Positions 13,164 through 16,216 of a stretch of 64,000 nucleotides of DNA are shown here, in pieces. The notes beneath the pieces are model-generated. The model saw only the letters and a list, made by a program, of their open reading frames with translations. It did no database searches and had not been told where the DNA came from. Source of the DNA: an uncultured Psychroserpens sp. (GTDB taxonomy: Bacteria > Bacteroidota > Bacteroidia > Flavobacteriales > Flavobacteriaceae); the NCBI RefSeq assembly GCF_947500255.1, contig NZ_CANMRL010000005.1, forward strand, positions 62,001 through 126,000, in the 5' to 3' direction. The position numbers and the translations under genes were made by a program. Positions within the stretch are counted from its first letter, which is position 1. Each line of letters begins with the position of its first letter.

Positions 13164-13194
13164 ATTCTACTAACCAACCAAAAAATTTATATTG

Positions 13195-14451
13195 TTACGA
13201 TCGTGATCTTCCTCTTGATGTTCTTGAGTTTCTACTTTTAGAAGAACTTCTAGAACTTGATGTTCTTACCGAAGACTGTTTTCTACTTCTAGACTGCTTT
13301 ACAGTTGAAGAAGATTTGTTGCTTCGTTTGTTACTAGATATACGAGTATTAGTTGTGTTTGGTTTTCTAACATTCGTATTTTTTCTAACGTTTCTAGTTG
13401 TCGTTTTATTATTAGACACAGACCTAGGTGATTTGGTCACATTTCTAGTTCCTGAATTTGATCTTGGAGAAGTTGTTCTTATCCTAGTATCTCTTTTCGT
13501 CTTTGTATTTGCTCTACTATTATCTCTAACAGTTCTCGTATCTCTTGTTCCAGAGTTCACTCTATTATCATCTCTTGTGATTCTAGTATTAGATCTCGTA
13601 GTTCCTCTATTTCCTCTTGTGCTAGAAGTACCTGATGATACATTTCTTGTTCCACGTCTCGTTGTGCTTGATACATTTCTATCACCTCCACGTCTCGTTG
13701 TAGTAGCTTCTTGTCTGTAGCGTTCATTTGCTCTACGTCCAGTAGTTGCAACAGTACCTCTTCGACTACCAACTCTTACGGTTTGTCTTACATTGTTTCT
13801 GTAAGGTCTGTAATATGTATGTCTTACAGGTGTGTAAAACTGTCTGTAAGGTCTTGCATATACAACACAGTAGTTTACAGGTGGAATTACATAATATGTA
13901 TGCCATGGTCTAAACACATATGCTCTATTATAAACATTGATAAACCCAGTACAGTGTGTAAATGTTCTATATCTGTTATAATGAACGTATAATCCTCCTA
14001 AACGAGCAACACGACCATAACTATTATAGTTTATATTAATATTCCCTATTTGAGTAACACGTCCATAGTAATCGTAGTAGATAGGAGTGTTCTCAATTTG
14101 AATAATAGCACCATAATCGTCATATTGAACATAAGGATTATAGTCATAACCACTATTGAAACTAATCGAAACATTTCTAGTATTAATCCCTACATTAACG
14201 TTTGGTCCATAATTTTGCATATAGAAATCAAATTGACCATCAGGAAAAATAGAAAACTCTATTCCACCTTCAACAAATATGAAAGAATTACCATAACCTC
14301 TAACATAGTTGTACGACGTGTTTGACTCTACTGTGTTGGTGGTTGTTGCATTAGCTGTTGTTCCTACTAGGAGCAATACTGCAAAAAATGATAAAATGCG
14401 TTTACTCGTCATTTTCATTTTTCTTTCGAATTTGTTAATCTTTGATTTCAT
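13195..14451 (-). CDS. Secreted protein with YD/GR beta-repeats and an Arg/Ser/Thr-rich C-terminal tail
   Basis: Signal peptide; FIFVEGGIEFSIFPDGQFDFY domain shared with 15304..16002; start moved from 14490 to ATG at 14451 because a sigma-54-like promoter overlaps the longer N-terminus. Confidence 0.75.
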   Translation of the reverse strand: MKSKINKFERKMKMTSKRILSFFAVLLLVGTTANATTTNTVESNTSYNYVRGYGNSFIFVEGGIEFSIFPDGQFDFYMQNYGPNVNVGINTRNVSISFNSGYDYNPYVQYDDYGAIIQIENTPIYYDYYGRVTQIGNININYNSYGRVARLGGLYVHYNRYRTFTHCTGFINVYNRAYVFRPWHTYYVIPPVNYCVVYARPYRQFYTPVRHTYYRPYRNNVRQTVRVGSRRGTVATTGRRANERYRQEATTTRRGGDRNVSSTTRRGTRNVSSGTSSTRGNRGTTRSNTRITRDDNRVNSGTRDTRTVRDNSRANTKTKRDTRIRTTSPRSNSGTRNVTKSPRSVSNNKTTTRNVRKNTNVRKPNTTNTRISSNKRSNKSSSTVKQSRSRKQSSVRTSSSRSSSKSRNSRTSRGRSRS

Positions 14452-14485: not shown

Positions 14486-14501
14486 AACAATTAGCGTGCC
14501 A
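14486..14501 (-). promoter_or_regulatory. Sigma-54-type (-24/-12) promoter of the Arg/Ser-rich protein gene
   Basis: Minus strand TGGCACG-CTAA-TTGTT, 1 mismatch to TGGCACG-N4-TTGCW with exact spacing. Confidence 0.7.
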
Positions 14502-14608
14502 AAAAACATTAATAAGTTTAAGTATTTGTTTTCGAGTTGTTTAAAAACAGGTAAATCTACCTATATGTATGAGAAGGAGGAAGTTTATTTTAGTACTGTT
14601 AATTTAAA

Positions 14609-15217
14609 TTGATAGATATGATTGCAATCAAGGATTCTGAAGTGCTAAATGATCGTGTAAAATTACCGTTTCAATTTGATGCTAATAAAATGCTGAAAGA
14701 ATACTTAGCGTTACAAGCTTCTGATTTTGAATATTATAATGTTATTCAATTAAGAGCGCCATCTCACATCGTAGACCCATCATTGCCAATACCACCTCCT
14801 GCGAAAGATTATGCTGATGGTTCTTGGACGGAATGGTCAGATGCAAAGGAATTAAATAGCTCACCATATCTCAAAGAGATTATCAATTCATTTAAAGAAA
14901 TTACTACAGTAACTTTAGTAAGACTACTAAGGTTGGCACCTAAATCTGAAGTTAAGGAGCACACAGATCCAACATTGGGACTAGAGGTAGAGCGATCGGT
15001 AATTCGATTAACCATACCGATTGTAAAAAATGAAGGTGTTACATTTTATTTAAATGGTACACCTGTTGATATGAAACCAGGAGAATGCTGGTATCTGAGA
15101 CTAACTGATGCGCATCGTGTTGTGAATTCTGGAGATATAGAACGTGTGAATTTGACCATTGATATGATTCCTAATGAGAATTTACGCTTGCTCATTGAAA
15201 GTATGTTTAGATCTTAA
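14609..15217 (+). CDS. Aspartyl/asparaginyl beta-hydroxylase-like Fe(II)/2-oxoglutarate oxygenase
   Basis: VKEHTD (HxD) ... DAHRVVNSGDIERVNLTIDM (distal His and Arg). Confidence 0.75.
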   Translation: MIDMIAIKDSEVLNDRVKLPFQFDANKMLKEYLALQASDFEYYNVIQLRAPSHIVDPSLPIPPPAKDYADGSWTEWSDAKELNSSPYLKEIINSFKEITTVTLVRLLRLAPKSEVKEHTDPTLGLEVERSVIRLTIPIVKNEGVTFYLNGTPVDMKPGECWYLRLTDAHRVVNSGDIERVNLTIDMIPNENLRLLIESMFRS

Positions 15218-15218
15218 A

Positions 15219-15251
15219 AATCCCGAAGGCTTGGGGAAGCACATCGGGATT
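15219..15251. terminator. Nested stem-loop between convergent hydroxylase and beta-repeat protein genes
   Basis: AATCCCGA-AG-GCTT-GGGG-AAGC-ACA-TCGGGATT. Confidence 0.65.
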
Positions 15252-15303
15252 CTATATATGTTCACTTATAATGTGAACAACCAACTAAAAAAATCAAGAC
15301 TTT

Positions 15304-16002
15304 TTAATCTTTGTATTTTTTATTCTTTTTTTGTTTAAACTTTTTATGTTTTTTGATTTTACCATTCTTTCTGTAGTAGTAGAAATCGTCATCAAAATCT
15401 CCATCATAACCATAGTCATCATATTGATTTCCTCCAATTCCAGACCCTACACCACAGTTTAGTGTTGCATTGTGATGGTTTACGATACCATTAATATGAA
15501 CAATCTCTCCCCATCTGTTATAGTTAACTCTAAGTCCGCCTACTTGACGAAGAAATCCATTTCCTCTTTGGTAACTCATATATACAGATCCAGCACGTTT
15601 AATTCGGCCTCGTCTGTCGTAGTTAATAAATACATTACCAATTCTACGTACTTTACCATAGCTGTCATGTGTAATGATAACACCTCTTGGTCTTGGCGTA
15701 GAGTAGTGAACTCTGTTTACTGAACCTGGTGCACCATAAGTAGTGTTAACAGAACCTCTACGAGTTCTTGTGGTTCTGTAGTAGGTTTCTGAAACGTTGT
15801 TTCCGAATTCTGTATTGAAATCGAAACTTCCGTCAGGAAAGATTAAAAATTCTACACCACGCTCAATGAACACTATTGGTTCTGCAAAACGATAGCGTGA
15901 ATTATTAAAATCAATTCCTTGTGTTGCAGTTATTGTTTCTGCTGCTGTTACAGTTGTTAATCCCATCAACAAACCTGTAAATAATAGTACTAATTTTTTC
16001 AT
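15304..16002 (-). CDS. Secreted YD/GR beta-repeat protein, paralogue of 13195..14451
   Basis: Signal peptide; FIERGVEFLIFPDGSFDF matches paralogue; repeats HDSYGKVRRIGNVFINYDRRGRIKRAGSVYMSYQ...; Lys-rich C-terminus. Confidence 0.75.
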   Translation of the reverse strand: MKKLVLLFTGLLMGLTTVTAAETITATQGIDFNNSRYRFAEPIVFIERGVEFLIFPDGSFDFNTEFGNNVSETYYRTTRTRRGSVNTTYGAPGSVNRVHYSTPRPRGVIITHDSYGKVRRIGNVFINYDRRGRIKRAGSVYMSYQRGNGFLRQVGGLRVNYNRWGEIVHINGIVNHHNATLNCGVGSGIGGNQYDDYGYDGDFDDDFYYYRKNGKIKKHKKFKQKKNKKYKD

Positions 16003-16072
16003 AGTAAATAAGGTTTTAATTTTGCCTACTCATAATTGTAGCTTTTCGGCTTACGCTATATGCTTATGATAA

Positions 16073-16088
16073 ACCAATATGCGTGCCA
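16073..16088 (-). promoter_or_regulatory. Sigma-54-type (-24/-12) promoter of the second beta-repeat protein gene
   Basis: Minus strand TGGCACG-CATA-TTGGT, 1 mismatch to TGGCACG-N4-TTGCW with exact spacing. Confidence 0.65.
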
Positions 16089-16216
16089 AAGTTTTAATTA
16101 TTTGATATTTAAGTAGTTACATGTATTTTTGTAAAGGTTGGTAAATTCTGATGTATAAAAAGAAACTCCTGACTTCAATTTTTTTATTACTTTTATCTAA
16201 CTAACCAATCCAACTT

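Follow-up and report, generated by a model that had tools for sequence, protein, structure and literature searches.

In this study we focus on a locus within a 64-kb window (the whole stretch of DNA analysed, 64,000 nucleotides) of the 4.0-Mb genome of an uncultured Psychroserpens species. The locus comprises two paralogous genes, hereafter A and B, which encode exported repeat proteins (Table 1). The two proteins share a common core, in which GxEFxIFPDGxFDF leads into ~20-residue repeats. Upstream of each member of the pair lies one -24/-12 element on the minus strand, as had been proposed in an earlier, sequence-only reading of this DNA, and the sequences and coordinates given there agree with ours: each site departs from TGGCACGN4TTGCW at a single position. 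The GG at -24 and the fixed spacing to the -12 TTG are present at both sites, and both -12 boxes deviate from the TTGCW ideal at the consensus C, which is replaced by T in TTGTT (B) and by G in TTGGT (A). The transcription starts predicted here are given in Table 1; those of the earlier reading were 14475 for B and 16061 for A.

Table 1. Features of the A/B locus and of the surrounding genome. Plain numbers are positions in the window, entries beginning with G000 are positions in the genome, and the neighbours of the four activator genes were named by eye from translations.
Feature	Position	Strand	Description
Gene A	15304..16002	-	232-aa exported protein; signal peptide recognised by eye; about four YD-like beta-hairpin repeats of ~20 residues each
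Gene B	13195..14451	-	418-aa exported protein; N-terminal signal peptide recognised by eye; A-like core; Arg/Ser/Thr-rich tail
Predicted -24/-12 RpoN promoter of A	16073..16088	-	TGGCACG-CATA-TTGGT = TGGCACGCATATTGGT; predicted start ~16063
Predicted -24/-12 RpoN promoter of B	14486..14501	-	TGGCACG-CTAA-TTGTT = TGGCACGCTAATTGTT; predicted start ~14476
DUF805b-like leader RNA of A (Rfam RF02914)	16023..16059	-	~5 nt after the predicted start, ~20 nt before the A start codon
Candidate activator-binding palindrome	16102..16112	-	consensus YTGANNNTCAR; upstream of A; weak
Activator 1	G000:C1:1135015-1138518 (L007)		cNMP-binding + PAS + AAA; adjoins a class III adenylate-cyclase-like gene
Activator 2	G000:C2:94996-98496 (L008)		receiver + AAA, no detectable HTH; adjoins a polyphosphate-kinase-2-like gene
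Activator 3			AAA + Fis-type HTH; between miaB and an lptE-like gene
Activator 4			NtrC-type, receiver + AAA + HTH; adjoins a histidine kinase and an efflux gene
RpoN-type site before a lipoprotein gene	G000:C1:1360276		recurrent in the genus
RpoN-type site before a LysM-region protein	G000:C3:172038		NCBIfam PRK11198, E 2e-20, below cut-off
RpoN-type site before a second lipoprotein-like gene	G000:C6:273255		sigma-A-like box also present
RpoN-type site before an sRNA-like transcript	G000:C9:10908 (L082, G000:C9:9000-13500)		terminator hairpin at the end, no obvious protein

No Pfam family, RHS/YD included, matched A or B up to an E-value of 1, and a sequence search against solved structures returned nothing credible. 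The structural model of A has a pLDDT of 55 over the full protein and is confident at residues 108-172 (pLDDT ~85), which form a chain of short beta-strands. The best fold matches of this segment are teneurins, with a probability of 0.99. Like the teneurin YD/RHS repeats, residues 108-172 are modelled as beta-hairpin repeats; unlike them, they make up about four repeats and no large shell. The E-value of the match is only 0.1, and the Pfam RHS/YD families gave no counterpart. One may guess that the proteins act at the cell surface, in structure or adhesion.

Taken alone, the window proves little, since a pattern allowing two mismatches is found in it six times against 4.6 expected from shuffles, without enrichment; the comparative evidence carries the case. 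The genome-wide scan proposed in the earlier reading gave five matches to TTGGCACGN4TTG and none to the reversed control pattern, and across 25 genomes of the genus TTTGGCACRN4TTG is matched 153 times, against 18 for the reversed control. Of the 151 family genomes, 130 hold a relative of A (or of its paralogue B), and every one of the 25 genus genomes holds a relative of B. When the regions upstream of these orthologues were scanned with TGGCA[CT]-N5-TTG, counting for A within 260 nt, the motif proved conserved: B has it upstream in 25/25 genus genomes and A in 74 of 80 named Flavobacteriaceae loci, a sample that partly overlaps the other set of family genomes. Among the 30 best family matches to A, 25 have the motif upstream. 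Six of the 80 A loci have no site within 260 nt, and in two of these six a site lies about 600 nt upstream. Over the 673,361 bases of the 80 loci, the motif occurs 140 times on the gene strand against once on the opposite strand, and nearly all of the remaining gene-strand matches stand where the promoter of a B gene further downstream would be expected. The sigma-A -7 box, whose consensus is TAnnTTTG (PMC9723704), is present at background level only (7/80 for A and 1/25 for B, with 561/8000 in random windows). Conservation, strand asymmetry and the background level of the sigma-A box together argue that the A and B sites are selected RpoN-type promoter elements. We consider it very likely from the sequence comparisons that both are genuine, family-conserved RpoN (sigma-54) promoters, driven by an AAA+ enhancer-binding protein. 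The family-wide conservation of the predicted promoter pair is added by the present analysis, and the genes and their promoters appear to stem from an old duplication.

The position of the B promoter also bears on the start of the protein. The longest open reading frame call, of 431 aa, begins with a TTG at 14490, which is the TTG of the -12 box itself; the earlier proposal that translation starts at 14451 or later is thus upheld. Indeed, the sequence ...TTACAATTATG at 14451 is conserved in nearly all B orthologues, and B is most likely translated from this ATG. The predicted leader, from ~14476 to 14451, would be 25 nt long, which compares well with the 24-nt median measured in Flavobacterium psychrophilum (PMC9723704). 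A GTAA/TTAC hairpin in the B leader, which looked conserved in the genus, was dropped because it is not conserved in the family. Further upstream of B, at approximately 14538-14556, a conserved inverted repeat of the type AGGTAGATTTACCT accompanies the divergent Asp/Asn beta-hydroxylase-like gene (14609-15217, +) and probably belongs to it.

To our knowledge, RpoN has been little studied in Bacteroidota. The genome carries a single rpoN (G000:C1:1465892-1466368, E 8e-53) with all three sigma-54 Pfam domains. The sequence-only reading depended on this gene, which was found here and in 151/151 family genomes; as it is present in all of them, phylogenetic profiling of rpoN was uninformative. The enhancer-binding protein that such promoters require is available as well, as four proteins of this genome have full Sigma54_activat domains with E-values below 1e-64, while weaker matches to the domain are probably other AAA-type proteins. 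The cNMP-binding/PAS activator is unusual, with an N-terminal cyclic-nucleotide-binding domain and a gene divergent from that of the adenylate-cyclase-like protein. The receiver-AAA activator stops after the AAA lid, no DNA-binding domain being detected, and frames near its length recur in most of the family genomes examined.

In the mechanism that we propose, RNA polymerase with RpoN would sit waiting at the -24/-12 elements, and an AAA+ enhancer-binding protein would open the complex when the cell senses a signal, probably one related to the envelope; the genes of the two paralogous exported repeat proteins would then be transcribed separately. In four other genomes (G045, G057, G115 and G147) only two strong activators are found. 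Their frames, of ~388-400 and 421-428 aa, match activators 2 and 3 in length, and these genomes nevertheless keep sites at A or B; one of the receiver-AAA and AAA-HTH classes would thus suffice there, with the reservation that activator class in other genomes was set by frame length alone and that activators could differ between species. Judging from these frames, the activator of A and B is probably either activator 2 (receiver-AAA, no detectable HTH) or activator 3 (AAA-HTH, LptE-linked). The promoters could also be real and respond to the cNMP-binding/PAS protein or to the NtrC-type regulator, both of which are encoded in this genome, and more than two activators also occur in several genomes that carry A/B; we regard this as unlikely in view of the same four genomes, which by frame length hold neither class and still carry A/B sites.

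A strong, well-conserved activator site was not found upstream of A and B. Only a weak palindrome, YTGANNNTCAR, was seen; its distance from the -24 element, on the upstream side, is ~18 nt for A and ~30 nt for B, and no other position in either class is more self-complementary. It is the best of 113 centres tested in the A class, while the B class peaks at a different fixed distance, and in the window the palindrome is poorly preserved before B.

Downstream of the predicted A start lies a leader that resembles the DUF805b RNA both in its match to the Rfam model and in its place before a start codon, and that differs from it in that most orthologues of the genus have a longer hairpin variant. 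The A leader scores 34.9 bits against RF02914 (E 2.4e-7), 0.7 bits short of the gathering score of 35.6, and the orthologous leader at G163:C38:22827-22861 scores 41.7. When aligned, the A leaders of the family share ATAGCGTAAGCCGAAAAGCT...GAGTAGGC. The short form fits a predicted pseudoknot, made of two interleaved helices, AGC/GCT and GCC/GGC; as these are nearly invariant (57/57 and 56/57), the short form offers little covariation. In the longer variant, which is found in many orthologues, including most of those in the genus, an additional hairpin, GTTTCTAA-ACGAG-TTAGAAAC, sits inside the second helix. Over the 14 distinct sequences of this variant 98% of cells pair, with changes on both sides in 7 of 11 pairs, whereas pairing reaches at most 46% in a control with slid partners.

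Moreover, in 53 of the 69 loci where it could be measured, the -12 G is separated from the first leader stem by 17-18 nt. Such constancy would follow from a transcription start immediately ahead of the stem, and it would place the beginning of the leader RNA ~5 nt from the predicted start. Since the predicted transcript opens with a small structured RNA before the start codon, A is probably under a second, post-transcriptional control. Our proposal that an RpoN promoter is coupled family-wide, at constant distance, to a 5'-terminal structured RNA, so that A is controlled twice, is put forward tentatively, as a possibility that we would not yet favour over its converse. If it holds, A would answer both to an envelope-sensing enhancer-binding protein and to an RNA responsive to a ligand or a protein, or one that determines mRNA stability. 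A general association of DUF805b RNAs with RpoN was considered and rejected, an RpoN site lying within 70 nt upstream of 3 of 30 genus matches, all three before A. Most of the other genus matches also stand shortly before a start codon; they precede unrelated genes without a site in those 70 nt, which makes the coupling specific to A. A further DUF805b RNA, above the gathering score, is found in this genome at G000:C2:232968-233005 (-) (L166), before a gene starting MGFYKKQPVDASKTTATYLWTGLR.

In the sequence-only reading A and B formed a small two-gene RpoN regulon, and they are indeed the only two strict sites that lie close together in the genome. This delimitation proved too narrow. Site classes that recur in the genus with aligned downstream sequence were taken as further members; a lipoprotein gene, a LysM protein gene and an sRNA-like transcript are among those that have a conserved site of this form in front (Table 1); furthermore, the regulon of F. 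psychrophilum is larger (PMC9723704). An isolated pair is, in our view, very improbable.

An RpoN regulon of this type is already mapped in the family. In F. psychrophilum, a -24/-12 RpoN motif, SM4, was found by 5'-end mapping and confirmed by mutagenesis at one operon, remFG-sprCDBF, and the RpoN targets there include envelope and chaperone genes, Lon, the gliding operon, genes for lipoproteins, genes for exported proteins whose function is not known, and the RNA Rfp36 (PMC9723704). The A/B pair fits this picture by analogy of target class: the two systems have in common the bacterial family, the -24/-12 promoters, exported, lipoprotein and RNA targets, and PF00158 activators, of which F. 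psychrophilum has three. They differ in the prominence of chaperone genes and the gliding operon in the F. psychrophilum regulon, and in the 5'-terminal DUF805b-like leader that A carries here, which is not described for that regulon in the portion of the report drawn on (PMC9723704). That the A and B sites are chance matches or a conserved site of another DNA-binding protein, with transcription from ordinary sigma-A promoters, is scarcely credible. In favour of this reading, the looser pattern is no commoner in the window alone than in shuffles, but conservation at 74/80 and 25/25 loci against about one chance match per 673 kb, the kept -24/-12 spacing, sigma-A boxes at background only and the proven promoter role of the same kind of motif in F. 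psychrophilum (PMC9723704) all speak against it.

Sigma-54 has been presented as a controller of the bacterial exterior by Francke et al. 2011 (PMC3162934), and the targets A and B are likewise exported or envelope proteins; the strings 'Bacteroid-' and 'Flavobacteri-' are absent from the main text of that article. With our work a conserved pair of RpoN targets is defined at the sequence level throughout the Flavobacteriaceae. Two further additions of the present analysis are the structured RNA at the predicted 5' end of the A transcript and the reduction of the candidate activators to two proteins. Furthermore, an orphan Rfam element would be tied to a promoter of known type, which makes the role of the DUF805b-like RNA testable on a single well-defined transcript.

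Among the further sites, that at G000:C9:10908 precedes an sRNA-like transcript of ~130-140 nt that is strongly conserved in the genus. The order at this locus is the RpoN site, GAGGAGTGATTACCTC...ATAACGGAGTAACATTTA, GGTTGGTTAG and the terminator hairpin, with a conserved element, AATATGATATTATTTTGATATCAAAT, upstream. An exact pattern did not recover the transcript across the family, finding it in 3 of 151 genomes, which belong to the genus and one sister genus. The sequence GGTTGGTTAG stands shortly before a terminator-like hairpin both in this transcript and after gene B (13170-13179, -). A second possible short RpoN transcript, with ~100 nt and then a terminator-like hairpin and with no obvious protein, follows the site at G000:C3:118611 (L079, G000:C3:117100-119800).
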